Positions 4,221-23,926 of a stretch of 64,000 bases of DNA are shown here, one piece after another; positions within the stretch are counted from its first letter, which is position 1, and each line of letters begins with the position of its first letter. A program made the translations under genes and the position numbers. This DNA comes from Calothrix sp. PCC 7103 (lineage in GTDB: Bacteria > Cyanobacteriota > Cyanobacteriia > Cyanobacteriales > Nostocaceae), in assembly GCF_000331305.1 (NCBI RefSeq), contig NZ_KB217483.1, positions 1,344,356 through 1,408,355 on the forward strand, given 5' to 3'. The notes below the pieces were generated by a model, which saw only the letters and a program-made list of their open reading frames with translations, was not told the origin of the DNA and made no database searches.

Positions 4221-4962
4221 TATTCTCTATCCCCAACAATGTTTCAGCGACTAACATATTTTGCTCAAATTCCTTCATCCAAGCTCCAATCCGCGATTTA
4301 ATTGTAATGTCGGCGCCTGGGTCTTTGCTCGTTGAGACATCGCCAAAAGATAAATTTTTGTTGTCCACAAAGTCAAAAGGGCGGTAGAACAAATCGGGCA
4401 TCAAAATCTCAATGCCACCTTGTTCTAAAATTTGAGAACGAGTATCAGAATCTTCGTAGCGCTCAAATTTATCTGCATCGCCGTGGAACAAGTTTTTTAC
4501 CACTACATAGTCCACGCGGGCGCCACAGTATTCATATAGTACCCGTAAGGCATTCACTGAGTCTTTCACTCTGGATAAAACGCTTACCATTGTGACACTG
4601 TAGCCTAACTCCTTGAGAGCATCAAACACGCCCAGGTCTTTTTCAAACCGTTCAAAAAACATTCCTGACTGGGCAGGTAAGTCAACTAGCGCTAATCGCG
4701 GCCGCTTAGTATCTAAATCAATCAGTAGGTCGTCGGCTCCTCCCCTTGTAAATATGTCTATTAGGTTGACTCCAGGCGCCACTGAGTTATAGTGCCTGTA
4801 CAACTGAGCGTTACGGTTGTCTGAGTCATAAGCAAGGTAATTTAATTTTCTATTTATATATAGTTGTAGCAAGCCCCTAGCAAAGGTACTTTTTCCCACG
4901 CCGCCTTTATCACCAGTGACAATTACTACTCGCTGGTTCAGTGTAGATGTTTCGTTAGTCAT
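4201..4962 (-). CDS. ParA-family partition ATPase
   Basis: Has the deviant Walker A GDKGGVGKSTFARGLLQLY close to the N-terminus with the ParA signature lysine, then RPRLALVDLPAQSG as switch II/Walker B and VDYVVVKNLFHGDADKF. At about 253 aa it is of the small ParA/MobD size class. ParA ATPases bind DNA non-specifically as ATP dimers and move plasmid cargo. The ATG at 4962 is chosen because AAGGAA precedes it by 7 nt; an ATG at 4986 is also possible. It lies between parM-like and the second ATPase, so this operon has both a type I-like and a type II-like motor. Confidence 0.8.
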   Translation of the reverse strand: MTNETSTLNQRVVIVTGDKGGVGKSTFARGLLQLYINRKLNYLAYDSDNRNAQLYRHYNSVAPGVNLIDIFTRGGADDLLIDLDTKRPRLALVDLPAQSGMFFERFEKDLGVFDALKELGYSVTMVSVLSRVKDSVNALRVLYEYCGARVDYVVVKNLFHGDADKFERYEDSDTRSQILEQGGIEILMPDLFYRPFDFVDNKNLSFGDVSTSKDPGADITIKSRIGAWMKEFEQNMLVAETLLGIENSAAEAA

Positions 4963-5000
4963 GTTTGATTTCCTTTTCTTCTTCATTAGTTATTAATCAA

Positions 5001-6263
5001 TTACAATTTTTCGGGCATATCCAGAAATCCTTTTGGCTTTTTCCGTTCCTTTGAATGAACGGCACCGACTAATAATTTATGCTGTTGGTCTACAGGAAAA
5101 CTTTTATTGGAAGTACTTTCATCCGCGTTGCTTGTTTGTTTACGGTTTTGCAGTAGATTAATCCGAGTTATGAATGCTTTGTACAATGCCAGTACATCAC
5201 CAATTCTTGAACCCATACCAGCGGTGTCCAATTGCGGTGGAATCTCAATGCCCCCATTCCAAATAACATAAGTATGTGACCAGTGAGCTACCAGTTCTTC
5301 TTTGAGATACTCTGCTGTACCACCGCAAAAAATAATCTCATCTATATCTACAGGTATCTGCTGAGATAACCAACGCACTAACGCGCGGAAGTAATCATCG
5401 CGAGAAAGTTTTAAAGCTTCTGCCATACGAATTGCTTCCGCTTCTATTTCCAACGGGTTTTTCTTTCTAACTAAACGAGTTAAAGGCTCATGTAAACAAC
5501 TAGCCCCAGCTTCTACAATAGCTGGAATAAGTCGCGGGTCTTCTTTGTGTAATCCTGAAGTGCGTCGCACAAAGGCATCTACCATCCATGCCATGCCAAA
5601 CTCACTCGTAAGACCAGGACTAACCGTACCCCTCACACTCATCAGCACCGATGCATTGCGGTATCCGACCATTGCAATTGCCAGCGCGCGATTATTAATG
5701 TCATCTCCCAAAACCGCGCGACGGTGAAGATACATACCAGCACCCTCGGACTTTGCATCGAACAACAACAGCTTGACTCTCATCTCTCCTGTGGGAGTGC
5801 GAAAACACTCAAGAGCAGATGTCAATTTAACTAACAGCGACTCTTTATCTTGATACTCACTTGGAGGTAGCAGCACAGTGAGCGCTACTTTTAACTTGTT
5901 ATCTAACCCCAACTTTTCCCGCAATACCCACAAGGCGCCACAGATTTTAGGAATTGCGCTAGCTTCTTTAAGTTGTTTTAACAGCGAGTTCCCACCATAT
6001 TTATGCTGTGCTAAAAATCCCACAGCATGGTAATCATCACCCACACCAATCCAACAAGTATCTTCTGGTTCCGATGTACCAGATTTATTTTGCTCGTAGT
6101 CTTGGAGCGATGCGTAAGACACATCTGCTACCTCTGGCTCCATGCACAAAAGTACTGGCTTGGCGCCGCTAGCATATGCAACTGCGATGGCTTTTGTTTT
6201 GCTCCCACCCAAATCGATAGCTAATACTAAATCTGGAGGAGGTATGCGCGCTATTTTTGACAT
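5001..6263 (-). CDS. parM: ParM/StbA-like actin-type ATPase
   Basis: Phosphate-1 motif LVLAIDLGGSKTKAIAVAY at the N-terminus, a second Gly-rich loop (VDIDEIIFCGGTAEYLKEEL) near residue 310, and the overall length (420 aa) fit the actin-like ParM/Alp family of plasmid segregation filaments. Cyanobacterial versions are longer than R1 ParM (320 aa). The ATG at 6263 is preferred over 6284 because AAGGAG lies 8 nt upstream. The gene follows the ParR-like gene by 40 bp and both lie downstream of an 11-bp repeat array, the gene order of type II partition loci reversed (adaptor before motor). Confidence in the motor family is high, in the name moderate. Confidence 0.75.
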   Translation of the reverse strand: MSKIARIPPPDLVLAIDLGGSKTKAIAVAYASGAKPVLLCMEPEVADVSYASLQDYEQNKSGTSEPEDTCWIGVGDDYHAVGFLAQHKYGGNSLLKQLKEASAIPKICGALWVLREKLGLDNKLKVALTVLLPPSEYQDKESLLVKLTSALECFRTPTGEMRVKLLLFDAKSEGAGMYLHRRAVLGDDINNRALAIAMVGYRNASVLMSVRGTVSPGLTSEFGMAWMVDAFVRRTSGLHKEDPRLIPAIVEAGASCLHEPLTRLVRKKNPLEIEAEAIRMAEALKLSRDDYFRALVRWLSQQIPVDIDEIIFCGGTAEYLKEELVAHWSHTYVIWNGGIEIPPQLDTAGMGSRIGDVLALYKAFITRINLLQNRKQTSNADESTSNKSFPVDQQHKLLVGAVHSKERKKPKGFLDMPEKL

Positions 6264-6303
6264 TTTTGTTTCTCCTTGATTCATTTGATAAGTAGTAAAT
6301 TAT

Positions 6304-6798
6304 TTAAACTTGGCTCCAGCCCGTTTCTTCCAATAACCTCAGAGTTTCTTCATCTAAATCTTCTTCTTCCTCCTGTTTATCCAACTCATATTTTTGGCTA
6401 ACTTCTGCTTCTAAAACAGGAGAGTCAAAGTTAGTAGCCACCTCAAGGCAAGGTGTGACTGGACTTTCAGTATTTAGTGTATTTTCTACACTAGTTATAG
6501 GATGTGTACCATTACTTTTTGAGTGCAAATTTACTGTCAAAACTTGCTTGATTAAATTAATTTGCTTCTCTAGCTGTGCAATAGAAGTTAACACTGCGTT
6601 TATCAGTTCTTGACCAGTTACTCCTTTCGCTTCCAAAGCAAATGGCATCCAAAAAGCTGCCAGTGCTTGCACTACTATCTTTGAACCGTGACTGCCTGAT
6701 GGATGGTTTAACAGATATTCCAGCAACTTCCCCTCTGGCAGCGCAACGCTTCTTCTAATTCTTAGCTCTATATCTCTGTCTCCCTTTTTAATAGCCAT
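6304..6798 (-). CDS. ParR-like centromere-binding adaptor
   Basis: A 164-aa protein. The N-terminal part DIELRIRRSVALPEGKLLEYLLNHPSGSHGSKIVVQALAAFWMPFA (spread over residues 9-55) has the basic strand then two helices of a ribbon-helix-helix protein. A coiled-coil-like segment (QLEKQINLIKQVL) and a long acidic C-terminal tail ending EEEDLDEETLRLLEETGW follow. In R1 ParR the acidic C-terminus engages the ParM filament. Its place directly between the repeat array and parM supports the adaptor role. No direct family match can be claimed from sequence reading alone. Confidence 0.6.
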   Translation of the reverse strand: MAIKKGDRDIELRIRRSVALPEGKLLEYLLNHPSGSHGSKIVVQALAAFWMPFALEAKGVTGQELINAVLTSIAQLEKQINLIKQVLTVNLHSKSNGTHPITSVENTLNTESPVTPCLEVATNFDSPVLEAEVSQKYELDKQEEEEDLDEETLRLLEETGWSQV

Positions 6799-7587: not shown

Positions 7588-7914
7588 ATGAAAAATAACA
7601 GAATTACAATAAGGTACGACTCGGAAGAGTACCAAACTTTGATAACGCTTGCCCACTCTACGGGATTACCAGTCAGCGAGTACGTCAGAAAAACTTCATT
7701 ACATAGACATATTACAGTAGCTCATCCACCAATCAATATTGAAACCTACCGCGCGTTATTGAAAATTGCCGAATCTCTCAAAAAGTTGGAAAGTGAGGTT
7801 CAGCGCGCGACATCCCAAGGGCAAGTAATACCAAATCTTAGCTGTGAGGTTATAAATGACCTTTATAAGGTAGTAAGACAAATTAGAAAAGAAATTGCTA
7901 TTAATCAACGATGA
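7588..7914 (+). CDS. mobC: MobC-like relaxosome accessory protein
   Basis: A 108-aa protein beginning ITIRYDSEEYQTLITLAHST, then LPVSEYVRKTSLHRHI: a ribbon-helix-helix N-terminus as in MobC/TraY-like relaxosome proteins. The C-terminal half is helical, with INDLYKVVRQIRKEIAINQR matching the MobC C-terminal pattern (NlNQia..lN). It overlaps the relaxase gene by ATGA (7911-7914), so the two are translationally coupled. It is expected to bind oriT and help the relaxase open the nic region. Confidence 0.75.
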   Translation: MKNNRITIRYDSEEYQTLITLAHSTGLPVSEYVRKTSLHRHITVAHPPINIETYRALLKIAESLKKLESEVQRATSQGQVIPNLSCEVINDLYKVVRQIRKEIAINQR

Positions 7915-9065
7915 TACTTAAACAAGTAACTGGCTATGACTTTTACCCATGCCTAAACTACGTTCTCTCCAAGCAAGATGCCGTACTGTTGGGTGGCAAC
8001 ATGGAAGGAGATACAGCCTCTGAGCTAACCCAAGAATTCCAATTATCAGTGCAGCAGCACTACCGCTTGAAAGCTAAAACCGGAACCAGACCGACTACAA
8101 AGGCGGTTTATCATGCTACCCTAAGCGTGCCAATTAGCCAAAGATTATCAGATGATACATGGCAGTCAATTACCGAAGATTACCTCCAGCAAATGGAGTT
8201 TGATGATAACCAATATATATTAGTAAGACACCAAGATACTCAGCACGACCATGTACACATTGTTGCTAGTGTGTTGAAATTAGATGGTAGTACCGTAAAC
8301 ACCTCATGGAATTACTATAAAGGTCAAGCAGTAGTGCGGCAGTTAGAACTTGCTTACAACTTAGAATCTGTTGCAAATAGTTGGGAAATTGATAAAGCGG
8401 CGCCTAGCACTGGGCAGATGCAACGATTTAAAAATGAACAACACCTTTATGAGAACGGGTTTCGCGATACTCCACCAGCAGAACCAGCAATGCTACAACT
8501 GCAAAAACTTATTGATGGCGCCGTAAAAGATTGCCCGTCACTCCCACAGTTAATAGATAAACTTGAAAAATCTTCAGTCACAGTCCGCACCAGGAGTGAT
8601 AAGGACAATAACCCCACAGGTATTAGCTTTTGCTTTGAAGGAGTATGGTTTGCTGGGCGCCAACTAGGACGCGCGTATTCTCTACCAGGACTGCAAAAAT
8701 ATCGAGGTGTAGTTTTAGAAGACAGTATTGCAAAGCCAGAAGCGGAAGTACAACTTCTTCGTACTCAAAAAGTGGCGCCGATAGTAGCTGCTTATCTTAA
8801 GAGTATAAATCGCGCTGAGTATCAAGGTAATAACTATGCCGCGCGCTGGGAAAGTAACCAACTAGTGCTTGAGCGTAGTTCTCAGGATGAGCATCGCGCG
8901 CGGTTAATGAAAGCTGCTTATATAGAAGGAGAATGGCAACCAGTCGAACAAAGTCAACTTAGCAATGAGGATGTGTCACACTTTGAAAAATTGATACCCA
9001 TTATCCAGCATTTGAAGAAAGAATTATCTGGCGAAGCTGAAAATGAAATGCTTGATAGAACTTAA
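7911..9065 (+). CDS. Relaxase (MobA/VirD2-type mobilisation nuclease)
   Basis: The three-histidine metal motif is visible as H107-x-D109-T-x-H112-x-H114-x-H116 (RHQDTQHDHVHIVAS). The N-terminal GYDFYPCLNYVLSK supplies candidate nucleophile tyrosines. The enzyme nicks oriT, stays bound to the 5' end and is carried into the recipient. At 384 aa it has a relaxase domain (about residues 1-180) and a C-terminal region without a helicase or primase domain, typical of mobilisable plasmids. With MobC it forms a minimal MOB module. The nearest candidate coupling protein is the FtsK-like ATPase at 15839. Confidence 0.85.
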   Translation: MILKQVTGYDFYPCLNYVLSKQDAVLLGGNMEGDTASELTQEFQLSVQQHYRLKAKTGTRPTTKAVYHATLSVPISQRLSDDTWQSITEDYLQQMEFDDNQYILVRHQDTQHDHVHIVASVLKLDGSTVNTSWNYYKGQAVVRQLELAYNLESVANSWEIDKAAPSTGQMQRFKNEQHLYENGFRDTPPAEPAMLQLQKLIDGAVKDCPSLPQLIDKLEKSSVTVRTRSDKDNNPTGISFCFEGVWFAGRQLGRAYSLPGLQKYRGVVLEDSIAKPEAEVQLLRTQKVAPIVAAYLKSINRAEYQGNNYAARWESNQLVLERSSQDEHRARLMKAAYIEGEWQPVEQSQLSNEDVSHFEKLIPIIQHLKKELSGEAENEMLDRT

Positions 9066-11522: not shown

Positions 11523-11762
11523 CTAAGCAGACATTTCTACAAAACGACTTACATCGACATATCTCACGTTACGTTCTATCAAAAACTCAACCAAACCATC
11601 AATTCCATTACTGTTACGAATCGTTGCGTAGCCTTTTAATTTGCGATGCTGACAATACTTAACAAGCTTACGGATGTGTAACGATTTTAGTTGCTTTTTC
11701 TCGAAATCAACGTCTACGAGAGGTAATTGCTTTGTTTGTTCCGCACCCACGGGCATTGTCAT
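11523..11762 (-). CDS. Small SAP/Rho-N-like protein (79 aa)
   Basis: The middle reads LKSLHIRKLVKYCQHRKLKGY, then ATIRNSNGIDGLVEFLIE, which follows the SAP/Rho_N helix-turn-helix pattern (L..L...A...G..GYS.LRK.ELI..L). Such domains bind nucleic acid. No other domain is present. Adjacent gaps (11282-11522 and 11763-11992) show nothing convincing. Confidence 0.45.
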   Translation of the reverse strand: MTMPVGAEQTKQLPLVDVDFEKKQLKSLHIRKLVKYCQHRKLKGYATIRNSNGIDGLVEFLIERNVRYVDVSRFVEMSA

Positions 11763-12529: not shown

Positions 12530-13357
12530 TTAACACACAAGACGATTTAACATTAATCTGGTCATTGCGGCGTATATCATTGCTTCGCTTACCTCTGGTA
12601 ACAATTCATAATCTTTACTTAAACGGCGGTAACGTCCCAACCAGCCAAAAGTTCTTTCCACTACCCACCGTCTTGGTAGTATTTTAAACCCCGAATCTCT
12701 ACGTTTTACGACCTCAACAGTGGCGCCACTAATCTCGTATACCGCGCGAGCAAAGCGTTCTCCTGTATACCCGGAATCTACCCAAATTAAATCTAAATCT
12801 TCTTTATCACAGTTGTCATCCATCAATATAACAACAGTTCCTACACGGTCACTAATATTGGCTTCCGTAACAACTACACCCAGTAATAATCCTTGTGTAT
12901 CTACCAATATATGACGTTTACGACCTTTAACTAGCTTTCCGCCGTCAAATCCAAATGTATCCACGCCAGTTGCTTCAAGTCGGCGAAGCCGCCCAACGCA
13001 CTGGCTCCCCTTTTTTCAGTCGTTTTAACCGACTGGCTATCTGCGATTGCTGCACTTGGAGAAGCATTCCTCCCTAACTGTATCCGTACTGCTTGCCGTA
13101 GCTCGTTATTTATTTCCTGCCAAATACCTTTTTTCTCCCACCTACGGAAATAATAATATACCGTTGATGACGGTGGGAAGTCGTTTGGTATCATCTCCCA
13201 TGCACAGCCAGTACGTATTACGTAAAATATCGCGTTTAAAATCTCACGTATGTCAGCAGTTCTTCGTCTGCCTCCTTCCGCGCGCTGGTGGTATCAATGG
13301 CTCTATAATTTGCCATTCATAGTCTTTAAGGTCTGTTTTATAAGCTTTTCTAATCAT
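12530..13357 (-). pseudogene. IS5-family transposase, broken by a frameshift and a 41-bp repeat
   Basis: Three frame segments together rebuild one DDE transposase. From the ATG at 13357: IRKAYKTDLKDYEWQIIEPL. Then, after a +1 shift near the GCGCGCG at 13279-13285: TADIREILNAIFYVIRTGCA, then YYYFRRWEKKGIWQ, DSQSVKTTEKRG. Then, after the repeat at 12965-13005: VDTFGFDGGKLVKGRKRHIL, DSGYTGERFA, WVVERTFGWLGRYRRLSKDY. This is the IS5 (IS1031/ISL2-like) pattern. Removing the 41 bases rejoins EKRG to VDTFGFDGG in frame. Terminal inverted repeats were not found, so the outer ends are not defined. Not functional. Confidence 0.85.
12965..13005. repeat. 41-bp small dispersed repeat inside the transposase
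   Basis: Begins GCCAGTTGC and ends GCACTGGC, so GCCAGT/ACTGGC pair at the ends, with an inner CGGCGAAGCCG hairpin. It matches the style of the small dispersed palindromic repeats known from Nostoc and Anabaena genomes. Its removal restores the reading frame exactly. Confidence 0.8.
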
Positions 13358-13434
13358 TAGCACCCTGTCCGGTATAACTACATCGAGTATATTACGAAAC
13401 TATTACTCCGTTATTTCCCGGCTTAAGATTTACT

Positions 13435-13816
13435 TTATAAATGACCTCTAACTACTAAATTTCGGCAGCGGAAATAATGGACGTAAGATAAAAATCTTGC
13501 ATGTTCACCTAAATCAGGGATTTTATCTGAATCTTCAAGCAACACGCCAGCAAAACTAAATTCGTATCTACGATTTGTGTAGTCGTCCCAAATTAACACC
13601 CTATCATCGCCCTTAAAAATTGTAATTTCAGTCCCAACAAATTCGTCGTTGAGTCGGGCAATACGAGCATCATCCTCGAAAGCGTACAACACTTTTCGTT
13701 CATCCCATTGCTTGTCCGGGCACATATAACCTTCCCATCCTTCCAAATGCTTATTGCAAACAAAGCCGTTTCCGCCGTGCAAAAACCGACATCCAGCACA
13801 TGATTTTAAATAATCG
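13435..13816 (-). pseudogene. Small Cys-containing protein, 5' end cut off by ISL3 element
   Basis: The frame runs from the IS end with SCAGCRFLHGGNGFVCNKHL, EGWEGYMCP, then an acidic region and SFAGVLLEDSDKIP. The CxxC..LHGG...VC pattern is that of a common small cyanobacterial protein with paired cysteines. There is no start codon before the IS junction at 13817, so the N-terminus was displaced. On the far side of the IS, minus-strand bases 15255-15271 carry a candidate beginning (ATGGAAATGAAAATTAT, or the overlapping frame CARYGNENY). Which frame is original cannot be decided without a homologue. Confidence 0.6.
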
Positions 13817-15254
13817 CGGTTCTTCAGTAGTTGTTATGCTAAACTATTAATAAAAATGCCAAGCTAATAAGCATCGAACTCGAAAATTTTCAAAATTTCT
13901 AAACCCATAAGCGGAGCGCTTAATTAATTTAATTTTATTGTTTATACCTTCAACGGCACCGCTAGTTGTGCGATTATCAAAGTAAGCAATAATTTCGTCG
14001 AACCAACGAATAAAAGTATTATTGCTATTTGAGAAGTATGTTTTAGCTTTTGAAAGCCACATACCTAATTTAAAAACTGCTGGATACCAATGATTCGTTT
14101 TATTATAAATTTTTCTCAATTTTTCTTTTAATTCATGCATCGCTTTTAGAACTGGGGATACAGATTTTACTTGAATTAATTTATGTATTTGTTCTTCATT
14201 TAAGTCTCCTTCGTTTTTGAGTAAAGCATATTTACTATTTTTTATTCCTTCTAATATTTTTTCATATTCATCTTTTTCCTCAGATGTTTCTGCTAATTTA
14301 ATTAGTTGTTCTACTTTGTATTTTTCTCTCTTTCTTTGTGTATCTAATTCTTTATTTACTTGTACCATTACGTGAAATCTATCAGCGACGACTTGAACAT
14401 TAGGCATTAATTCTATCACTAAATTTTTGTACCCTTGCCATAAATCTATACTCACTTCTTTAATTTGCTCTAAGACATCAAAGCCCCAGCTTATAAGGAC
14501 TTCCGCGATTACTTCTTGTGTCCGCGCGCTTAAAATCGCAATTGGTTTAGATGTATCTAAATCTATTAAGACTGCACAGTAATTACCCTTTCCTTTTCTC
14601 AAAGCTATTTCATCAATTCCAAGCCTTTTTAAGTCTATAGGTTTTGTTAAATTTAGTTTTTCAGATGCATCTTTCAACATTCTTTCTATCTCTTCTGTTG
14701 TTACTATACCTTTAGATGCCACGCTATGTATGTCGTTTTCTAAAACTTCTTGTATTATTTTATTGGCAAGCCGATTTGTATAAGTTCTTTTCTTCCTGGC
14801 AAAGTCAAATTCTTCGCTAAAAGGTTTTTTGCAAATTTTGCATTTAAATTGGCGCCGATTTATCTCTAAAAAAACTTGTTTCTCGCCAAAAGGTAAATCT
14901 TTAATAATATGACGATGATTTTGATGTAGTTTATGACTTTCCGTACCACAAGATGGACATACACCATACAGCTTTATTGGCTCTGTTCGTAAAATCATTC
15001 CAATTTCGTTATAAATACTGTGCGATATAACTTTTACTTCATCTATATCCAGAATTTGTGATAATATTTTTATACCTTTTTTATTGACCATGACTGTAAA
15101 TGTACCCTAAAATACAATGAGCGTATATACAGTCAATAATAAATAATGCTTACAAGTCAATCCTATCAAGCATTTTTGTAATATTTTTAAAGAAAAGTTA
15201 ATAATCATTTACATCTGTGTTTAACAATTTAGCATAACAACTACTGAAGAACCG
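13817..15254. mobile_element. Complete ISL3-family insertion sequence
   Basis: The ends are perfect 27-bp inverted repeats: CGGTTCTTCAGTAGTTG... at 13817-13843 and its complement ending ...CTACTGAAGAACCG at 15228-15254. The element is 1438 bp with one intact transposase gene. ISL3 elements normally make an 8-bp target duplication; the flanks share only ATAAT (13810-13814 and 15255-15259), so the duplication is degraded or lost. Confidence 0.9.
13847..15091 (-). CDS. tnpA: ISL3-family transposase
   Basis: A 414-aa protein with an N-terminal zinc-finger-like part (YGVCPSCGTESHKLHQ, then FKCKICKKPF) and the DDE core: LGIDEIALRKGKGNYCAVLIDL, SIDLWQGYKNLVIELMPNVQ, VVADRFHVMVQVN, and the final E in SGAVEGINNKIKLIKRSAYG. 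All match the ISL3 family and the length is normal. The gene is intact and starts 163 bp inside the right inverted repeat, so the element may still be active. Confidence 0.92.
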   Translation of the reverse strand: MVNKKGIKILSQILDIDEVKVISHSIYNEIGMILRTEPIKLYGVCPSCGTESHKLHQNHRHIIKDLPFGEKQVFLEINRRQFKCKICKKPFSEEFDFARKKRTYTNRLANKIIQEVLENDIHSVASKGIVTTEEIERMLKDASEKLNLTKPIDLKRLGIDEIALRKGKGNYCAVLIDLDTSKPIAILSARTQEVIAEVLISWGFDVLEQIKEVSIDLWQGYKNLVIELMPNVQVVADRFHVMVQVNKELDTQRKREKYKVEQLIKLAETSEEKDEYEKILEGIKNSKYALLKNEGDLNEEQIHKLIQVKSVSPVLKAMHELKEKLRKIYNKTNHWYPAVFKLGMWLSKAKTYFSNSNNTFIRWFDEIIAYFDNRTTSGAVEGINNKIKLIKRSAYGFRNFENFRVRCLLAWHFY

Positions 15255-15386: not shown

Positions 15387-15842
15387 TTATTCTAAAAATC
15401 TATTAATTTTTTGTTGACACTCTTGTAGTGCGAAAGAGGAATACTTATTAGCGTTAAGAATATTCTCTAACAAAAAATCTGCTGAAGAGGATATTCTTAA
15501 AATTACGCCATTATCTTGACTACTACGGTGGTAGTAATGAAGTACTGGAGATTGTATTACCGTCAAGTTGTCGTTACGGACGGCGTGAGCGTTAGCCAGA
15601 CCATCCATGATGAATTTGCAGGCAGCAGCTACGTTATCAGCATCTCTTCCAAAGTTGGTAAGATACCAGTGAAATTCCAGCCAAACTTGACCCAGAAACT
15701 TAATGTCGCATTCAGCTACAAATGCTGTGATTTTGTTAGTCCACTGTTTCTTCATAGCAGCGCTTTTCTGCCAACTTTCACGCGCGGCATCAATAATCTC
15801 GTTTAATGTTGGAGGTAATTCCATAGTCAAAGTGTAAATCAT
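15387..15842 (-). CDS. RusA-like Holliday-junction endonuclease
   Basis: A 151-aa protein. LPPTLNEIIDAARESW at the start and GRDADNVAAACKFIMDGLA, then AVRNDNLTVIQSPVLHYY near residues 68-110 give the RusA pattern (RD.DN....K.i.DgL..a.vi.DDn). The acidic residues of RDADN, MDG and NDN correspond to the catalytic Asp set. RusA resolves branched DNA as a dimer. The gene overlaps the FtsK-like gene by 4 bp and is the last of the transfer-like operon, so it may process plasmid DNA before or after transfer. Confidence 0.7.
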   Translation of the reverse strand: MIYTLTMELPPTLNEIIDAARESWQKSAAMKKQWTNKITAFVAECDIKFLGQVWLEFHWYLTNFGRDADNVAAACKFIMDGLANAHAVRNDNLTVIQSPVLHYYHRSSQDNGVILRISSSADFLLENILNANKYSSFALQECQQKINRFLE

Positions 15843-18094
15843 AAATTGTCTTCTTCGTTCAATGAACGAATATAGCGCTCAACAGCATTTTTGAGTTTTG
15901 TAAACTTTCTATCACCATTACGACCTCCAGGTAAATCTCCAAATATCTCCTTAACTATTTCTTCAACAGTATATCCACGACGATGTAGTCCTAAAATCTG
16001 ATTCTTTTTCTCGGCATCAAATTCAACGTTAAAATCATAGTTAGCTCGAAATTCAACTTTTTCTCCATGCTTATACAAATCAGCATTATCTAATTGTTTG
16101 TTTTTAGTCGAGTCATGTATTTTTATTTGCTTGCTAGTCACAATTCTATCAACAGCATTTGGGTCAACTAATCCTTTGTTTAAGTATAATTGCTTGACAA
16201 AATCATCGAATGTTAGCCCAGATTCCCATGCTACATACGGGTCATGCTGATTTATTGCCTCAGAGAGTAAACAACGAAAATACTCTACGTCTTCATCATC
16301 TGCTAAGTACAAAGCTTGCAAGCGCTCATCAAATTCGTTTGTACGCAAAATAAAATCACCGCGACCAAGTAAATGGAACGCGCGTCTATCTTTATCATCT
16401 GCTAAGGCTATATAACTGTCTTCCGGTCGCGCGGCTGCAAATGCTGTTTTACAAGGAAAGTTAGACCGTATTTGTGGCTTAATTGCATCTTTATCAGGAC
16501 GCTGCGAATACACAAGTAGATGAATGCCAGCCGCACCAGCTTTCCTTAGCAATGTTGATAAAGCTGCCTCAACTCTCTCAGTATAAACCTCGTCAGCTAG
16601 CATCTCCGGCGCCTCATCAATCCAACAAATTATACGTGGCATTACCTTACTACCAAAATAAAAACGGTTGTACTGAGTAATATTTTCAATACCCTCGTCT
16701 TCATGAGCATCAAACTCTTGATAGCGCAATTCCATTTCCGCTACCAAAAATTCCAACATATCAGCTGTACTAGATGCGTCTTTACAAACAGGCGCAACCA
16801 GATGCGGTAAATTTTTGAATTTACCCAACGTTACCCGTTTCACATCCGATAATGCTAACCGTACAACTGATGGCGGGTATTTACGTACTAGATATAACAC
16901 CCCTCCCTTCAAAAACTGTGATTTACCACTACGAGTACGCCCTGAACCAATTACATGGGTAATATTATCGTCACAAAGATTTATCCAGTGGAATATTGCA
17001 TTTACATCCACACCACCAGGAATACAAATGCGGCTCACGTCAATGTCGTCATCAAAATCAACGTAGTCACGGAAGTAAGCAATCTCCCTGTCAACCCTTG
17101 GAATATCAATTGCAGTACGTCCACATATTGAACTTACCATCGGTGGAACCTTAATCCCCAATTCCAACCCCAATTGTTGTACCAAGTCATCGCCAAAATT
17201 GGCAACACTACTAAATTTTGTACCGCGCGCTAATTTTAATTCAATCCTGTTAAATGTTGGCCCAGAGTAGGCGCCAATAAACTCAGCCTCAATCTTAAAA
17301 TCTTTCAGCACGCCAACAACTAACTCACCAGCCTCATCCAAATTAAACTGTGATGATTCGATAATTTCATCGACAGCATCCGATGCTTCTAACGATTTCG
17401 GCGCCGAAGTTAAAGTAACACCACTAAGCGAAGTAACATCAAACTCCAATTGCTTAGAACTTCCGACCGCAATAATACTCGCAACACGCTTCAATCTATC
17501 TCGCACCCAATTATCAGCTATTTTCTCACGCGAATTGAGGAAATACTCAACAGGCTTTGATTCTAAATACAACTGATAAATATGACTATCCAACACCTTA
17601 CGAAGCAAATTGTTAAGGTACATATTCTTTAATCCTATAAACAATTCGCATACTACCTCAAACCCCAAAATAATCTTCTCGTCAACAATCCGCAGGAAAT
17701 TAGCTTGTTCGCTGTCAGATGGAATGCGGTTAACCAAAATATACTCAAGTGCTAGTTGGCAAAACGCAAAATCATCTAAATTACAATACTCACCGCATAC
17801 CCGAATAACATCGGCATCACTCATACCAGATAACACTGACTGGTAAATAGCATTAAATAAAAACTCACGGTTATAAGCAATTGTCGGACGATTCAGCTTC
17901 TCTAAAAATTCTATTTGATTAACAGTAGCAACTACATAATGATATCCAGTATCATCCCCTTTACACTCAGCAGCACGTTGCGCTTCTTGTATTATTTGTT
18001 GATTATTGTACCCTTGCTGCTTGGCGCCTAACACCACCGCAAGCAAGGGATTAACCTCACTCGTAATATTTGATTCATTAACAGGTAAATACAT
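15839..18094 (-). CDS. FtsK/HerA-like DNA translocase (candidate coupling ATPase)
   Basis: A 751-aa ATPase with Walker A GSGRTRSGKSQFLKG near residue 385, Walker B RIICWIDEAPEM near 490, and the FtsK-like stretch GAAGIHLLVYSQRPDKDAIKPQIRSNFPCKTAF, then LLGRGDFIL. The N-terminal 250 residues are helical and unlike FtsK membrane domains; I see no clear membrane segment. A helix-turn-helix-like tail (QILGLHRRGYTVEEIVKEIFG, residues about 695-715) could bind DNA. In conjugative elements of Gram-positive bacteria FtsK/HerA proteins (TcpA, Tn916 Orf21) act as coupling pumps, which fits the cell-wall hydrolases upstream. Substrate not known. Confidence 0.85.
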   Translation of the reverse strand: MYLPVNESNITSEVNPLLAVVLGAKQQGYNNQQIIQEAQRAAECKGDDTGYHYVVATVNQIEFLEKLNRPTIAYNREFLFNAIYQSVLSGMSDADVIRVCGEYCNLDDFAFCQLALEYILVNRIPSDSEQANFLRIVDEKIILGFEVVCELFIGLKNMYLNNLLRKVLDSHIYQLYLESKPVEYFLNSREKIADNWVRDRLKRVASIIAVGSSKQLEFDVTSLSGVTLTSAPKSLEASDAVDEIIESSQFNLDEAGELVVGVLKDFKIEAEFIGAYSGPTFNRIELKLARGTKFSSVANFGDDLVQQLGLELGIKVPPMVSSICGRTAIDIPRVDREIAYFRDYVDFDDDIDVSRICIPGGVDVNAIFHWINLCDDNITHVIGSGRTRSGKSQFLKGGVLYLVRKYPPSVVRLALSDVKRVTLGKFKNLPHLVAPVCKDASSTADMLEFLVAEMELRYQEFDAHEDEGIENITQYNRFYFGSKVMPRIICWIDEAPEMLADEVYTERVEAALSTLLRKAGAAGIHLLVYSQRPDKDAIKPQIRSNFPCKTAFAAARPEDSYIALADDKDRRAFHLLGRGDFILRTNEFDERLQALYLADDEDVEYFRCLLSEAINQHDPYVAWESGLTFDDFVKQLYLNKGLVDPNAVDRIVTSKQIKIHDSTKNKQLDNADLYKHGEKVEFRANYDFNVEFDAEKKNQILGLHRRGYTVEEIVKEIFGDLPGGRNGDRKFTKLKNAVERYIRSLNEEDNL

Positions 18095-18481
18095 TAATTA
18101 AAACTCCTTACCTTTTTCTTCTCTTTCTTTGTGTCCTTCGTGTCTTTGTGGTTCGTTATTAAAATTTCATTTTTTAACGTGAGTTTAGCTGAGTATTTTG
18201 ACCCCTCTCCAAACCTCTCCCCGAAGCGGAGAGAGGCTTAAAAGCTGATTGAATATGGCTAAAATGAGATTCATTCGCCCCTCTCCTTGCAGGATACTGC
18301 TGGCGATTCAGGGGTGGCGCCCATCATTTTATGAAAACAGGCGTGTAAAGACGCGAAATTTCGCGTCTCTACATTTGCGGAAATCACGCAAAATCGTGAA
18401 ACTGAGGGGTCAGACCTACTATTCGCTCTTCTGTATCCTTGCAGGAGAGGGGTTGGGGAGAGGTTTGTAGAACTCATTTTT
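18095..18481. repeat. Intergenic stretch made of dispersed palindromic repeats
   Basis: No gene. It carries a partial copy of the GCAAAG repeat (18115-18160), an inverted pair CCCCTCTCCAAACCTCTCC (about 18202) and GGTTGGGGAGAGGTTTG (about 18451), and a perfect 20-bp palindrome AGACGCGAAATTTCGCGTCT at 18349-18368. This last unit is a widely seen cyanobacterial intergenic repeat. It separates the FtsK-like gene from the lytic transglycosylase gene within the operon. Confidence 0.65.
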
Positions 18482-19096
18482 TTACAAATCAATTAGATTA
18501 CTATATTTACCTTTTATTTCAACTAACTGCTTATTATAATAATTCCTCAATTCCTCCACCGTCCTTGGATGTTGTTCGTAATCATTACAAGGAAACGAAG
18601 CCCATACCTTTCCTACTTTACATGCAGCCATTTCAAAATTACCCGACTCCACATCATCAACAGCTTTATTACGGCGAATATATTCAATTGCCATTTTATC
18701 TTGCGAAGGCGGAGAAAAATTTTTCAAACCTAATTTAGGTTGCAAATCATTCCATGATATATCTAACATCTGATAGGCGCCAGCAGCAGTTGAACATACA
18801 TTCCTACGATTAATTAGCTCACACTGCCTAACTCTCGGATGGGTAGAGAAATTCTTAAAAGTGCCATTAAACACTAATTTATGATAACTCGAATATCCAC
18901 TAGTACCTGTTTCTGCCCATCTTATAGTAGCAAGAAATGCAGCCATTCGAGGCGAATAATTAGTAACATTTGTTTTAGTCTTCGTATTGCTAATTATAGA
19001 AAATGCTTGATTGGTGAAACCATATAAGCCTAAAACAGCGACACTAACAATTGAAATTGCAGTTGGATGCAGTTTAAATTTAATTCGATGCAGCAT
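18482..19096 (-). CDS. Lambda-R-type lytic transglycosylase (endolysin fold)
   Basis: A 204-aa protein with an N-terminal signal anchor (AISIVSVAVLGLYGFTNQAF). The catalytic domain reads AAFLATIRWAETGTSGY (Glu near residue 60), FSTHPR, STAAGAYQMLDISWNDL, LGLKNFSPPSQDKMAIEYI and KVGKVWASFP. This is the order of phage lambda R endolysin (AFLDMLAWSEGT, SDHPR, TGAGRYQLL, LGLKDFSPKSQD, WASLP), GH104 family. It cleaves peptidoglycan glycan strands. In a transfer operon it would open the wall locally, like VirB1. A membrane anchor rather than release by a holin argues against a phage lysis role. Confidence 0.85.
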   Translation of the reverse strand: MLHRIKFKLHPTAISIVSVAVLGLYGFTNQAFSIISNTKTKTNVTNYSPRMAAFLATIRWAETGTSGYSSYHKLVFNGTFKNFSTHPRVRQCELINRRNVCSTAAGAYQMLDISWNDLQPKLGLKNFSPPSQDKMAIEYIRRNKAVDDVESGNFEMAACKVGKVWASFPCNDYEQHPRTVEELRNYYNKQLVEIKGKYSNLIDL

Positions 19097-19108
19097 TACT
19101 ATTTATTC

Positions 19109-19567
19109 TCAAGGATTAGGACTATAAACGCATTTATTGTAGTTAGCTATCACGTAGTTATAAATTGCTGGCAACGCAGAACGATACTTAATCGGATAAG
19201 GATTACTTAATTCTTGACTAGTCACTAAATATGCCCATCTACTTGCATATGTTTGTCCTTTCTCAAGTCTCAATTCATTTTTAGATGCATAAAAGCCAAA
19301 AGATTGATTATTGTAACAAGCGCTATCTGCTAGATTACGAATAGTTTGTAAACTTAACGTTTTTATGATCTTCTTATCCTTATAACTCAAACGCGATATA
19401 ACGCTATTCTTAATAGTAGATGCATCACTTGGCGTAAAATTAACCCGATTAACCACCTGCTCAAATTCTCTTTGAATTATCGGTACTTCAGGTTCAGCAA
19501 TAACAGTAGTTGATGGAACAAGTACTAATTCAGCAATTAACAAAGACCTAAAGATCAACTTATTCAT
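19109..19567 (-). CDS. Secreted protein of unknown function in transfer-like operon
   Basis: Start chosen at ATG 19567 (152 aa), 17 bp after the preceding stop; an upstream GTG/ATG would overlap more. The N-terminus (MNKLIFRSLLIAELVLVPST, cleavage near TVIAEP) is a signal peptide. The mature part contains two Cys (SACYNNQSFGFY and NKCVYSP) and helices, with no recognisable domain. Its place between a transglycosylase and an NlpC/P60 peptidase suggests a periplasmic component of the same apparatus. Confidence 0.55.
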   Translation of the reverse strand: MNKLIFRSLLIAELVLVPSTTVIAEPEVPIIQREFEQVVNRVNFTPSDASTIKNSVISRLSYKDKKIIKTLSLQTIRNLADSACYNNQSFGFYASKNELRLEKGQTYASRWAYLVTSQELSNPYPIKYRSALPAIYNYVIANYNKCVYSPNP

Positions 19568-19583
19568 AGGAAAACATCTCAAT

Positions 19584-20267
19584 TTAATAAACATGCGGAC
19601 GCACTGCAATAACGCGCGAGTTAGGAAAAGAACGTCGAATATTTCTTTGCCTCACAGGTTCGGAACGAGTACTTCTATCAATGAACTCACCATTACCCAC
19701 ATAAATACCAACGTGAGTAATTGCTCCAGTAGCGAAACTGCCATAAGTATTGGTCAAACCAATCAAATCACCAGGCAAGAATTGGTTTTGGTCAGTCATC
19801 ACCTTACCAATATCACTGCCAAAGAACGAGCGCGCCATTAATTCGCCATTGTTCGGTTGCTTGCCTGCATCCCAAGGTCGATTTGTAACTCCCACACCTT
19901 CAACCTGCGCTTCAGTGAGAATGTTACGTACAAAATCAGCACACCGCTCACCTTCACCCGGCTTGAAATCACGCCCCACCCACGCGTGCGCACGCTCCAA
20001 TACTCGAAGAGCTACCGGAGATATTGATGAAGTATTAGTTCTTGATAATGTGCCAACCATCGATTGAAGCTTTTGTACTATTGTTAAGGAATCAAGCCAG
20101 CCTGATACCGGAGATACCATCAACACAACCAATACAATAGACGCAATTGCATATCTCCATTCACCGATACTGAAAGAAACAGCATCATTTACACTCAATT
20201 GGTTGGCAGAAGCTTTGTGTTGATGTTGCTTGCTACTGCCTTCACCAATTTCAAAAATTATTCGCAT
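19584..20267 (-). CDS. NlpC/P60 cell-wall peptidase, membrane anchored
   Basis: A 227-aa protein with a membrane segment at about residues 35-55 (WRYAIASIVLVVLMVSPVSG). The C-terminal domain has the NlpC/P60 set: RVLERAHAWVGRDFKPGEGERCADFVRNIL (nucleophile Cys near residue 108), then ITHVGIYVGNGEFIDRS (catalytic His near 185). It should cut the peptide stems of peptidoglycan. Together with the lambda-R-type enzyme it provides the two activities combined in CwlT of Tn916. It lies 3 bp from the upstream gene. Confidence 0.85.
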   Translation of the reverse strand: MRIIFEIGEGSSKQHQHKASANQLSVNDAVSFSIGEWRYAIASIVLVVLMVSPVSGWLDSLTIVQKLQSMVGTLSRTNTSSISPVALRVLERAHAWVGRDFKPGEGERCADFVRNILTEAQVEGVGVTNRPWDAGKQPNNGELMARSFFGSDIGKVMTDQNQFLPGDLIGLTNTYGSFATGAITHVGIYVGNGEFIDRSTRSEPVRQRNIRRSFPNSRVIAVRPHVY

Positions 20268-20270
20268 TAC

Positions 20271-20558
20271 CTAACGGGTTTGCTGTTCACAGTCAATTCT
20301 CTGAATACGCGCCAATCTCTCAAAATCATTTGTCGGCGCCGCACAAGCTGTATCTATATCGTTATTATTCGTAGGAGGCTGTGTAGGAGTGGGTTTGTTG
20401 GCGTTTGCTTTAGAGCTATTTACAACACTAGACCTCATCACAACTGCTGCAACTTTTGTTAAAACACTCCTTGCGTCGTAAAATCTCATATATCCAGGTT
20501 GCAGAATATCTAAAATCCAAAGCACAAACAAACACCAAAATATAACCCGGCTCCACAC
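20271..20558 (-). CDS. Small single-pass membrane protein
   Basis: 95 aa: one N-terminal membrane segment (VIFWCLFVLWILDILQPGYM) and a Pro/Asn/Thr-rich tail with three Cys. No domain recognised. It is packed between neighbours (10 and 3 bp gaps), so it is likely a structural part of the operon's membrane complex. Confidence 0.55.
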   Translation of the reverse strand: MWSRVIFWCLFVLWILDILQPGYMRFYDARSVLTKVAAVVMRSSVVNSSKANANKPTPTQPPTNNNDIDTACAAPTNDFERLARIQRIDCEQQTR

Positions 20559-20568
20559 CGTACTACTC

Positions 20569-21096
20569 CTAATTCAATCGACGTACTACTGGTACTGCCA
20601 ACGAAGGTAAATTATCAGGAATAACTTTAATTTCCTTACCCGCAGCATAACCAGGTCCTGTAATTTGCGAATTAAGTACAAACCCAATCGCACTGACAAT
20701 CAAAAAACTAGCAGTACAAATAACTCCAACAGGCGAACCAAGAATATTGCCACACCATGTCACTGGATGCCAAAAATAGCGCCAGGGGTTCTGTGGGTGA
20801 AACCTATGTGCTTTGTAAGTCTCCACATAGTCAATTTCAATTTCTGGCACACGGCGCCGCATAGCCGAACGGTCTTGCATACGTACTCCCGGCATCGGTT
20901 GAGATACCCCAGAAGGATATATTGGTGTTGGCTGCGATACAGTCTGCGCTGTAGTGTTAACAACAGGGGCGCCATTCTGTTGCTGCATTGCAGAACCCAA
21001 CATAGTTGCTAAATTATTCATCGCGACTAAACCCCCACCTTGAGACAAATCTACATCTAATTCTCTTGTTCTATTTCCGCCACCGCGATTTGACAT
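20569..21096 (-). CDS. Membrane protein, disordered N-terminus
   Basis: 175 aa. The first 90 residues are Gln/Pro/Gly-rich and probably disordered and cytoplasmic; then YKAHRFHPQNPWRYFWHPVT, one membrane segment (SPVGVICTASFLIVSAIGFVL) and a short outer tail. No family recognised. It abuts the next gene directly (21096/21097). Confidence 0.55.
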   Translation of the reverse strand: MSNRGGGNRTRELDVDLSQGGGLVAMNNLATMLGSAMQQQNGAPVVNTTAQTVSQPTPIYPSGVSQPMPGVRMQDRSAMRRRVPEIEIDYVETYKAHRFHPQNPWRYFWHPVTWCGNILGSPVGVICTASFLIVSAIGFVLNSQITGPGYAAGKEIKVIPDNLPSLAVPVVRRLN

Positions 21097-21621
21097 TTAA
21101 TCCTCCTTATCACTCCAAAAATCTTCACAGTCTATAGCATTCCTAAATTCATCCGGCGCCAATTTCTCAGCTGGCACTACAAAATTAGTATTTGTATCAT
21201 GTGGTATTACGCCATCAGCAGTTGGACGCACTAATCGCAAATGCCTAGTCAAATTTGGTTGCGGCTCTAACTGCTGACTCGAAGGGTTAATATTCTCTAC
21301 CGCATAATCCGACTGCGCTTTTAGGTGGTCCTCGGACTGTTGCCCCAAAGTAGATTCCACATAAATACTTTCGTTGTATCCCTTCAGTCCTAAGTACAGA
21401 AAGTATATAAATCCTCCAAAAAATACAACACCACATAACAAGTGCAAATTTTTCCCCGGTGACGAAATCGCTACAATTCCAGTTCGGCTACTTTCTTGGT
21501 AAGTTGTCTCTACCAAATCCTGCTTAAACGAGTAGATGACATTGAAAATACTTAATCCCAAGCAAGCAACACCAACTATAAAACTAATTAAATATGTACC
21601 CCCTCTATTTCTTTGCTCCAT
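21097..21621 (-). CDS. Two-pass membrane protein
   Basis: From ATG 21621 (174 aa; an earlier GTG is possible). Membrane segments at about 9-30 (TYLISFIVGVACLGLSIFNV) and 60-80 (LHLLCGVVFFGGFIYFLYLG) with a charged cytoplasmic tail of about 90 residues. It overlaps the preceding gene by 17 bp. Function unknown, but topology is like small structural proteins of conjugation channels. Confidence 0.55.
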   Translation of the reverse strand: MEQRNRGGTYLISFIVGVACLGLSIFNVIYSFKQDLVETTYQESSRTGIVAISSPGKNLHLLCGVVFFGGFIYFLYLGLKGYNESIYVESTLGQQSEDHLKAQSDYAVENINPSSQQLEPQPNLTRHLRLVRPTADGVIPHDTNTNFVVPAEKLAPDEFRNAIDCEDFWSDKED

Positions 21622-22477
21622 TCCCACCACCACCTTTAATTACTGGTTTTGGCTCCGGCGTTGGCTTACGACGCAATTCTCTTAACTGTTGGCGCCGCAA
21701 TTGCTCCAATAATTCCAATTCTTCAACCGCTTTATTGGCATCGCTCATTTGTTTAAGCGGGTCAGAATATCCTTGCGCTCTCAATAATTGTTTTTGGCTA
21801 TCAACATAAGGCTTGTATCCACGTTGAATTTCGCTTAACATCCGAGTAAAATCGACATTTGGCTGGCTTTCGAGATTGTGCGCCAAATCAATCGCTTCGA
21901 GCTTACCCAACAACAAATACGCAACTGCACTCGCTGGTAATTTTTGCTTTACCTCCGTACCATCTGTGTCTGTGTAAGACAAATAAAATTCATTGTTACC
22001 ACCTGAAACTTCACCAAAAGTATCAAGAGTTCGTATCCTCTCAACCTCCAAACCAGGTGTCATATGCATCCGGTAAAATGGATTGCCCTGCTGGTTGCGA
22101 TTACGCTCCGATTCGATGTAGGTTTTAATATCTTGCGACCAACGCGATGCTGATAACTGGCGCCAACCTACCATTGATGTACCATCTGGATTATTAAGTC
22201 GCAAATTTGTTGAATAGTCAGTTCGGGATAGTTTTTCAAGTACAGCTTCGCGCGCGACTTGTAATTGTTGTTTGGCTGCAACTACCTCAGATTTGTCTTC
22301 GTTACCATTCACAGCGTTTACATCAACTCGTTGCTTTGATGCTGCAATTAACGAAATTGTCACCAAAACTAAAAATCCGGCTATACCCAACAATAAAAGT
22401 AAGGTATTTTGCGGTATTGGTTTTCGCCTACCTCCATCAACAACCCCATAACGCTCCTTTGGTGAAAGATGTTGCAT
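21605..22477 (-). CDS. Bitopic membrane protein, possible VirB8/TcpC-like component
   Basis: A 290-aa protein with a short cytoplasmic start, one membrane segment at 25-47 (TLLLLLGIAGFLVLVTISLI) and a large outer domain of about 170 residues, followed by a coiled coil (ELELLEQLRRQQLRELRRKP) and a Gly-rich end. This bitopic layout is that of VirB8/TcpC assembly factors, but no conserved NTF2-like motif can be claimed from reading. Start and stop overlap the neighbours by 1 and 17 bp. Assignment is inference. Confidence 0.5.
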   Translation of the reverse strand: MQHLSPKERYGVVDGGRRKPIPQNTLLLLLGIAGFLVLVTISLIAASKQRVDVNAVNGNEDKSEVVAAKQQLQVAREAVLEKLSRTDYSTNLRLNNPDGTSMVGWRQLSASRWSQDIKTYIESERNRNQQGNPFYRMHMTPGLEVERIRTLDTFGEVSGGNNEFYLSYTDTDGTEVKQKLPASAVAYLLLGKLEAIDLAHNLESQPNVDFTRMLSEIQRGYKPYVDSQKQLLRAQGYSDPLKQMSDANKAVEELELLEQLRRQQLRELRRKPTPEPKPVIKGGGGNGAKK

Positions 22478-22698
22478 TAATTAATACCCCCATCAATCAC
22501 CATAAAACAACGTTTCGGCTGTTCAATCGCGCGCAACATTGCTACAGTGGCGCCGCCTATCAACACTCCAGTAAGCATTAACAACGGATTGAACGCAAGT
22601 GACGTACCCACACCAGTTAAAATTCCCACAACTGAGGAAATAGTTACGTTTAAACCCAATCCAGCCAAACCGTTGACCAAAAAATTAATCGCCGCCAT
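22477..22698 (-). CDS. Small two-pass membrane protein (73 aa)
   Basis: Two hydrophobic segments (VNGLAGLGLNVTISSVVGIL and NPLLMLTGVLIGGATVAML) separated by a short loop. Size and topology resemble pilin-like VirB2 or VirB3-type subunits, but no signature is present. It overlaps the 88-aa gene upstream by 14 bp. Confidence 0.55.
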   Translation of the reverse strand: MAAINFLVNGLAGLGLNVTISSVVGILTGVGTSLAFNPLLMLTGVLIGGATVAMLRAIEQPKRCFMVIDGGIN

Positions 22699-22951
22699 TT
22701 CTTAACTCCCTGGTTCTATTTAATACAACACCTATACCAATCAAAAAACCAATCACAGTACCCCAAAGCCCACCAATCAATATTGGTTCGGGTTGGACTT
22801 CTACTTTTTGAGAGCTTGGCGGCTGGGTAACAAACCACCCAACCAACAGCCCCGAAAAAGTAGAAAATCCCATTACTATCAATCCCGTAAATGCACCGTT
22901 TCTCAAACCGATAAGCGCACGATTACGATAATCAGCCGCGATGGGCATCAT
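22685..22951 (-). CDS. Small two-pass membrane protein (88 aa)
   Basis: Two membrane segments (NGAFTGLIVMGFSTFSGLLV and LIGGLWGTVIGFLIGIGVVL) with a Pro-rich loop between and a basic C-terminus. Glycine-rich segments of this kind pack into oligomers. It overlaps the next upstream gene by 4 bp (ATGA). Unknown function. Confidence 0.55.
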   Translation of the reverse strand: MMPIAADYRNRALIGLRNGAFTGLIVMGFSTFSGLLVGWFVTQPPSSQKVEVQPEPILIGGLWGTVIGFLIGIGVVLNRTRELRNGGD

Positions 22952-23577
22952 TTTGCTGGCGAGTTCTTCGCTGATGTGGAAGTCTTCGGATTGGATGAAT
23001 TCAACTGTTTGGGCGGTTGTGTTGATATACCCAGCACCATTGGGTGTTCCCCTTCTCCCCAGTGGATATTCTCGAAAAAATTTACATCAATTGCCTGTAG
23101 TGCCCGTTCCTGTGCGGCGCCAAATTCTGCCGCGTTTTTCGTACATCCCGATGACGAACTACCATTAGTTAATCGGTCACGTAACACATGCGTCGAAGCT
23201 TCAATAATTGACATAAATCGTGTATCACCTAATTGATACGCAACTGGCATATCCCGGTAAAGAATCCCTACGAAGCTATCTTTTGACTCGCTCTCAGGGT
23301 CTTTACCAAACCGCTGCTTGATGTAAGAGCGCGCGTCAAACTTAAAACCTCCACTTTCTGATTGTTTAGCTGCATTACGCATTTCAACTACTTGTTTTGT
23401 GGCATCAAGTAATGAAATATTTGCAGACAGAGCAGCTTTATTAATATCTTTCAAATGTTGAGCCGTTTCAGCAGATAACTGGTTCCCATCAATTTCTAAT
23501 TCTAACAAAGCGCAACACGAGCGAATCTCATCAGGCTGCACTTTCAACTCGGAAACCATCTGATTGATATGAATCAT
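22948..23577 (-). CDS. Hypothetical protein of transfer-like operon (209 aa)
   Basis: ATG 23577 is chosen because AAGGAG lies 11 nt upstream; a TTG at 23586 is possible. Soluble, with SYIKQRFGKDPESE and FVGILYRDMPVAYQLGDTRF, then a Ser/Thr/Lys-rich tail. No domain recognised. The first 45 bp overlap the preceding gene, showing tight coupling. Confidence 0.55.
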   Translation of the reverse strand: MIHINQMVSELKVQPDEIRSCCALLELEIDGNQLSAETAQHLKDINKAALSANISLLDATKQVVEMRNAAKQSESGGFKFDARSYIKQRFGKDPESESKDSFVGILYRDMPVAYQLGDTRFMSIIEASTHVLRDRLTNGSSSSGCTKNAAEFGAAQERALQAIDVNFFENIHWGEGEHPMVLGISTQPPKQLNSSNPKTSTSAKNSPAK

Positions 23578-23926
23578 CGGCGCCAATTCTCCTTAAAACT
23601 TCTTGAACGATAGCATCTTCTTGATTTACATATTGGGGATTAAGCAGAAAATCTTTAAGCGATAGTTCATTCGCATCTAATAGAAATTCTGCTAATCCTC
23701 CCATCGGCAACACTTGGTGTTCATACTCCTTAAAACTTAAGTTTCTGTACCGAGTGGCAACATAAAAATAGTCCAAACTCTCAACATCTCTCTCCTTAAA
23801 AAATCCTCCCTTCTTTCGCGGTGGAATTACTCCCGCAGGCGGATACCACAACTTTAGAGCCGAAGTAGAAACGCCATAACGTTTCGCCAAAGTAGTTCTT
23901 GTGTGAAGCCTTGTTACAAACATCAT
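23531..23926 (-). CDS. MerR-like HTH protein, first gene of transfer-like operon
   Basis: A 131-aa protein whose N-terminus (RTTLAKRYGVSTSALKLWYP) is a helix-turn-helix of the MerR/excisionase kind, followed by RKKGGFFKERDVESLDYFYV. The rest is helical with no second domain. As the promoter-proximal gene of the operon it is a good candidate for its regulator. The AT-rich gap upstream (23927-24230) would hold the promoter. Confidence 0.6.
   Translation of the reverse strand: MMFVTRLHTRTTLAKRYGVSTSALKLWYPPAGVIPPRKKGGFFKERDVESLDYFYVATRYRNLSFKEYEHQVLPMGGLAEFLLDANELSLKDFLLNPQYVNQEDAIVQEVLRRIGADDSYQSDGFRVESAA

Follow-up and report, generated by a model that had tools for sequence, protein, structure and literature searches.

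In Streptomyces, the TraB/Spd system moves double-stranded DNA (dsDNA) by means of an FtsK-type motor and several small membrane proteins (available parts of PMC12857230 and PMC3158045), and on ICEth1, a small integrative element of Thermus, the hexameric translocase TdtA is dsDNA capable and needed for DNA donation (PMC5365140, in excerpt). Among cyanobacteria, large Nostocales plasmids carry type IV secretion systems (T4SS) of the MPF_C or pCC7120alpha type (excerpts of PMC8600333 and PMC3158045). In the accessible text of PMC7766704, All7666, encoded on pCC7120beta, is given as the FtsK of Anabaena, where no other has been identified, and is reported to interact with the division protein ZipN; it also served as a putative FtsK in two-hybrid assays (PMC9426583, in part). 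We have analyzed a stretch of 64,000 nucleotides, the window, from Calothrix sp. PCC 7103 (C12:1344356-1408355, in a genome of 11.58 Mb and 12 contigs), focusing on an operon that combines an FtsK-type motor, wall hydrolases, and small membrane proteins. Our best guess is that this operon serves conjugative plasmids and integrated elements in filamentous cyanobacteria as an accessory module. Tentatively, we propose from its gene content and by analogy that it may act as an envelope-spanning dsDNA pump spreading the element between neighboring cells of the filament.

The operon is a conserved unit and is under purifying selection. Positions 15387 to 23926 of the window are tiled by 13 open reading frames (ORFs) on the minus strand that overlap at 7 of the 12 junctions, matching the ca. 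12 overlapping genes of a preliminary description of this DNA. A scan of 84,980 species genomes, in which the best 80 of 95 relatives were taken, provided 78 loci. After removal of 17 with FtsK genes of other phyla (L095 to L111), 61 cyanobacterial loci were left for the operon counts, and 44 of them were full, i.e., had all six small membrane protein slots plus FtsK; the other 17 comprised short contigs, intron-split or variant copies, and lone FtsK genes. The comparison of synteny across cyanobacteria that the preliminary description had suggested gave an identical gene order in 44/44 full loci, with the MerR-like gene at the head in homologous loci too and the RusA-like slot occupied in 34. 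Against loci L034 and L035, the ratio of nonsynonymous to synonymous substitution rates (dN/dS) was 0.06 to 0.33 for the 11 genes with usable dS (p166 was excluded from this set), and merR gave 0.10 with saturated dS. Within the Calothrix sp. PCC 7103 genome, there were four strong FtsK matches, each inside the same type of operon. Most proteins of the C7 copy were 65 to 93% identical to those of the window; for the other two copies, one close to position 420 kb of C12 and one on C8 (a contig of 45 kb), identity was roughly 25 to 68%. The FtsK profile found two full-length members, one interrupted member, and five other FtsK-like genes in 11 further genomes. No published description of the operon was found in the open-access PMC literature; subscription papers lay outside the search. 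A partial tandem p212-p88-p73-p290 array (L118:8936-10878), adjoining masked stretches, lies ca. 5 kb before the full operon on C7, and ORFs resembling the reverse transcriptases/maturases of group II introns, classed by eye, were seen inside four operons (L059:6303-7931, L070:7469-9241, L071:7672-9444, and L073:7472-9244).

Judged from its sequence, the motor is of FtsK type and predicted to be soluble, and the FtsK/HerA-type ATPase announced for this locus was confirmed by matches to both PF01580 and FtsK_alpha (Table 1). Searched against PDB, the profile of the FtsK alignment retrieved FtsK (2ius, 1.8e-50) well ahead of a DNA translocase coupling protein (6o1z, 1.3e-22), and NCBIfam likewise gave PRK10263 (FtsK) 1.7e-30 versus 3.7e-9 for plasmid TraB. 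The Walker A lysine-serine pair is invariant across the alignment, which also has a conserved C-terminal region, where the Pfam gamma domain gave no match. Transmembrane (TM)-like segments, detected by a simple hydropathy scan, were absent from FtsK, the lambda-R-type enzyme, RusA, p212, and MerR, and numbered one or two in p88, p73, p178, p175, and p95, in keeping with the small membrane proteins expected here. The protein p290 is the slowest-evolving gene product of the operon (dN/dS of 0.06 to 0.07); it had been likened to VirB8/TcpC, and its bitopic layout stands, whereas the fold found no support, since the AlphaFold2 model (predicted local distance difference test score of 63) had no confident structural match. 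The RusA-like resolvase was recovered by a PHROG match, while the MerR-like regulator remains a weak assignment, below the Pfam cut-off. In two homologues of p178 (L070:2865-4244 and L125:14001-15344), a P-loop ATPase is inserted between the N-terminal TM part and the ED-x-W motif. The second of these is on plasmid p2 of Calothrix PCC 7716, with no FtsK gene in its annotated neighborhood; this variant would be a relative of the operon-encoded machine in which the ATPase is tethered to the membrane.

At least one recognized type of wall enzyme was present in all 47 tabulated loci. According to the anchor alignment, one and the same N-terminal anchor bears an NlpC/P60, an M23, or a YkuD-fold domain depending on the locus; that three unrelated domains acting on peptidoglycan replace each other on it is noteworthy in its own right. 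Both hydrolases of the window had been described as membrane anchored, which holds for the NlpC/P60 peptidase, with its single TM-like segment; for the lambda-R-type transglycosylase, the enzyme type was borne out by the match to 1am7 and the anchoring was not. Between the hydrolase genes of three loci there are TnpB-like or IscB-like ORFs (L020:7427-8791, L034:8149-9159, and L058:6701-7978), the first supported by Pfam OrfB_IS605 and the other two classed by eye.

Compared with the described systems, the operon resembles Streptomyces TraB/Spd and the actinomycete integrative and conjugative elements (AICEs) in having one motor of the hexamer-forming FtsK family on mobile DNA of a multicellular bacterium, with small membrane proteins alongside. 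It differs in that its motor is nearer to FtsK than to plasmid TraB, in its dedicated wall hydrolases, and in that its elements also bear a T4SS, unlike the TraB/AICE motor, which acts on elements devoid of one. With FtsK/SpoIIIE it shares a motor domain with Walker A and FtsK_alpha, but the window motor lacks the N-terminal TM domain and the plasmid operon has wall enzymes. We take Tn916 and pCW3 (TcpA) to be similar in their FtsK-like ATPase, wall hydrolases, and bitopic protein; in contrast to them, the operon lacks VirB4 as well as any polytopic protein like VirB6 (none of its products has more than two TM-like segments), and a separate T4SS is found on the same plasmids. For ICEth1, the comparison is by description only, and what the available part of the source mentions next to TdtA is not wall enzymes but a nuclease plus a restriction enzyme (PMC5365140). 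The operon is found on the same class of large Nostocales plasmids as the cyanobacterial T4SS, but its profiles had no match in the T4SS regions retrieved from the Calothrix sp. PCC 7103 genome.

Among the 13 ORFs of the operon, Pfam identified no VirB4-type ATPase, and the Pfam VirB4 profile AAA_10 had no match in the genome. As "VirB4-like" query we used L122:572-3427, for which NCBIfam TraC (1.6e-13) and VirB4_CagE (1.2e-10) both scored under their curated cut-offs and PDB gave no match; its neighbors encode TrbI/VirB10 (1.7e-9) and a VirD4-type coupling protein (TrwB_AAD_bind, 2.9e-37). Taking as operon plasmids those PLSDB entries with FtsK covered at ≥80% and p290, we found 13 (10 conjugative, two mobilizable, and one nonmobilizable by MOB-suite), and all 13 had a VirB4-like gene. 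Direct searches gave the same for 8/8 plasmids, one of which is the variant plasmid, with a broken-looking copy. The absence of VirB4 noted in the preliminary description is thus correct for the operon and its surroundings, the nearest VirB4-like gene being 174,555 bases away, and fails as a general model, as does the idea that the operon stands in for a VirB4-type machine. On these plasmids, of 215 to 395 kb, the VirB4-like gene sits in a cluster separate from the operon. In plasmid C of Trichormus variabilis ATCC 29413, which has an intact-looking copy of the operon, it is followed by genes annotated as TrbI/VirB10 and T4SS DNA-binding protein. Half of the copies on large contigs (5/10) were ≤80 kb from a VirB4-like gene, with P = 0.0016 versus random placement in a test that assumes circular contigs, treats copies that are not independent, and excludes both the partial tandem array of C7 and a 24-residue fragment at C12:1055869. 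Across Nostocaceae, p290 was present in 55 of 217 genomes and the VirB4-like gene in 192, among them all 55 with p290 (versus 137/162 without it; hypergeometric 0.0004, ignoring genome size and relatedness). In the sample of the whole class, p290 appeared in 2/388 genomes. Conversely, 91 of the 104 PLSDB plasmids with a VirB4-like gene gave no p290 match, which argues for an accessory of conjugative elements rather than their engine. The module thus accompanies conjugative elements, which can do without it.

The pump that we propose would work as follows. A T4SS would first bring the element into the filament. There, the small membrane proteins would form a channel through the envelope, the anchored enzymes would open the wall locally, and the motor would dock at the cytoplasmic side and drive the double-stranded DNA of the element through the channel and, most likely, past the septum to the next cell. 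The pump would act in a manner similar to TraB plus Spd in Streptomyces, but it would have different parts and does not belong to that system. A soluble motor needs membrane partners, and a device that pumps through the envelope would require just such a set of conserved small membrane proteins and of wall enzymes on an anchor; since the barrier within a filament is the septum, transfer of dsDNA between neighbors is suggested. The FtsK type of the motor, the wall enzymes of every tabulated locus, the mobile context with a relaxase and VirB4-like genes, and the TraB/Spd precedent also count in favor of the proposal. That the operon represents an undescribed class of cell-to-cell dsDNA transfer machine, made of an FtsK-type pump, small proteins forming a channel in the envelope, and interchangeable anchored wall-cutting domains, by which T4SS-delivered plasmids spread through the filaments of multicellular cyanobacteria, is a more doubtful extension of this proposal. 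If so, a function like that of Streptomyces TraB/Spd would have been invented a second time and in a different phylum. Should the operon be a dsDNA pump, two unrelated multicellular groups would have come to the same way of distributing a plasmid among connected cells. The takeover of a filament by large plasmids would then become testable with the copy on T. variabilis plasmid C.

Several observations weigh against this proposal. No family of clt-like repeats was found near the operon in the six stretches searched, no outer-membrane or recipient-side component was recognized, and most of the small proteins matched no known family. The bias toward filamentous hosts, which we count in favor of the pump, could also mirror the host range of the plasmids: p290 was not detected on any of the 21 plasmids with VirB4 from Leptolyngbya, Pseudanabaena, Gloeothece, and Picosynechococcus, and likewise from ca. 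78 further VirB4 plasmids, many of them from Nostocales. Among the hosts of the 44 full loci, Hydrococcus (Pleurocapsales) and Plectonema fall outside Nostocales by NCBI taxonomy, the orders of the other genera being our assumption, and Hydrococcus is presumably the only nonfilamentous one. The 96.8% identity between its FtsK and the one encoded by T. variabilis plasmid C points to recent transfer or contamination.

A rather unlikely alternative is that the operon aids plasmid segregation, with the motor clearing or pulling large low-copy plasmids across closing septa and the wall enzymes adjusting septal peptidoglycan. FtsK and SpoIIIE do the same for chromosomes at closing septa. The true FtsK-type motor and the large size of the host plasmids are consistent with this role, as are ParA-like and DUF6753 genes, which in both L026 and L028 lie downstream of FtsK at a distance of 7 to 13 kb and in the window are located beyond the relaxase. 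The reported interaction of All7666 with ZipN would point the same way if All7666 were of this family. However, a role in segregation would not explain why the wall-cutting domains are interchangeable, and most VirB4 plasmids manage without the operon. If it were nevertheless the function, it would account for FtsK-type genes on cyanobacterial plasmids.

We consider it unlikely that the operon directly assists the co-resident T4SS in ordinary conjugation, as an extra coupling motor with a wall-opening set. The constant presence of a VirB4-like gene on operon plasmids and the proximity of both on large contigs fit this idea, but the T4SS regions have their own VirD4-type coupling protein, annotated also on T. 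variabilis plasmid C, and share no proteins with the operon, which most VirB4 plasmids lack. Besides, the VirB4-like proteins that it accompanies are near-identical in some cases and only 33 to 37% identical to each other in others. Quite improbable is a wall-attacking or exclusion device, in which swapped hydrolases and a small secreted partner would hit neighbors or incoming DNA, the motor having a side role. It would agree with the differences in hydrolase domains between loci and with the restriction of small secreted-looking proteins to NlpC loci (5/6 of those tabulated, or 6/7 counting the window, versus 0/41 of the others). In L034 and L035, too, the NlpC gene is followed by a p166 homologue. 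Yet the NlpC loci are few and come from two related groups, homology of their two types of small partner was rejected (hhalign probability of 0.6%), and the best-marked part of the operon is the FtsK motor. A minimal machine of relaxase and FtsK operon, transferring DNA without any VirB4, describes the window locally, where the relaxase is much closer than the VirB4-like gene, but is very improbable given the VirB4-like gene on every operon plasmid and the broken downstream operon genes of the window itself. A phage lysis or packaging module, which had been named as an alternative, is also unlikely, as 0/176 phage records with matches covered 80% of FtsK and no relative was found in viral contigs.

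TABLE 1 Features of the operon and its surroundings in the window
Feature	Position	Strand	Evidence
MerR-like putative regulator, 131 amino acids, first gene	23531..23926	-	MerR_1 E 0.0061, under Pfam cut-off
p212	22948..23586	-	Conserved, own alignment; no TM-like segment
p88	22685..22951	-	Two TM-like segments; no Pfam match over cut-off
p73	22477..22698	-	Two TM-like segments; no Pfam match over cut-off
p290, bitopic	21605..22477	-	One TM-like segment
p178	21097..21633	-	Two TM-like segments; tail ends in conserved ED-x-W motif
p175	20569..21096	-	One TM-like segment close to C terminus
p95	20271..20558	-	N-terminal TM-like segment
NlpC/P60 peptidase on common N-terminal anchor	19584..20267	-	PF00877 E 3.3e-8; one TM-like segment
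p166, small, signal-like N terminus	19109..19609	-	One TM-like segment; no known family (Pfam, PHROG)
Lambda-R-type lysozyme/transglycosylase	18482..19096	-	PDB 1am7 E 1.4e-16; PHROG endolysin 5.2e-37; no Pfam match
FtsK-type motor, 751 amino acids	15839..18094	-	PF01580 1.7e-20; FtsK_alpha (PF17854) 1.7e-8
RusA-like resolvase	15387..15842	-	PHROG 1682 E 1.2e-19; no Pfam match above noise
Two transposases among downstream operon remnants	12530..15091	-	DDE 12530-12964; ISL3 13847-15091
Remnant, C-terminal part of next conserved operon gene	13435..13782	-	43% identity to L021:11391-12665 residues 225-336, E 3.6e-29
Remnant of further downstream operon gene	11523..11762	-	Matches C-terminal parts of L020:14133-14633, L021:12925-13341, L022:16721-17236
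NikA/MobC-like protein and MobA/VirD2-type relaxase	7588..9065	+	NikA-like 2.5e-12; relaxase 5.2e-29
Plasmid-type maintenance genes	2808..6798	-	DUF6753 1.5e-50; CbiA/ParA 1.5e-7

The p212 protein matched no known family in Pfam, NCBIfam, and PHROG searches. The copy in the window may be impaired, since the two downstream genes are remnants lying among two transposases. The MobC-type/relaxase pair expected nearby was indeed found 6.3 kb beyond the end of the operon, and the general picture of a conserved operon of FtsK, wall hydrolases, and membrane proteins on mobile DNA beside a relaxase was supported. Within the maintenance region, ORFs 3444-4220, 5001-6284, and 6304-6798 had no Pfam match, and neighboring genes are ParA- and ParM-like by eye only. 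The gap of 387 nucleotides between the lysozyme and FtsK genes (18095-18481), which contains several inverted repeats and measures ca. 67 nucleotides in L020, is possibly a small mobile insertion.

On the plus strand, window positions 24897-29091 encode a peptide with a double-glycine-like leader, an ABC transporter with a C39 peptidase (Pfam), and an adaptor classed by eye as HlyD-like; together they form a putative bacteriocin-type export cluster. Upstream of it, at 24530-24776, a repeat of 43 nucleotides occurs three times with a spacing of ca. 100 nucleotides. Finally, positions 46738-49095 (minus strand) encode a CHAT-CHASE2 protein, after which two large ORFs come in the same orientation.

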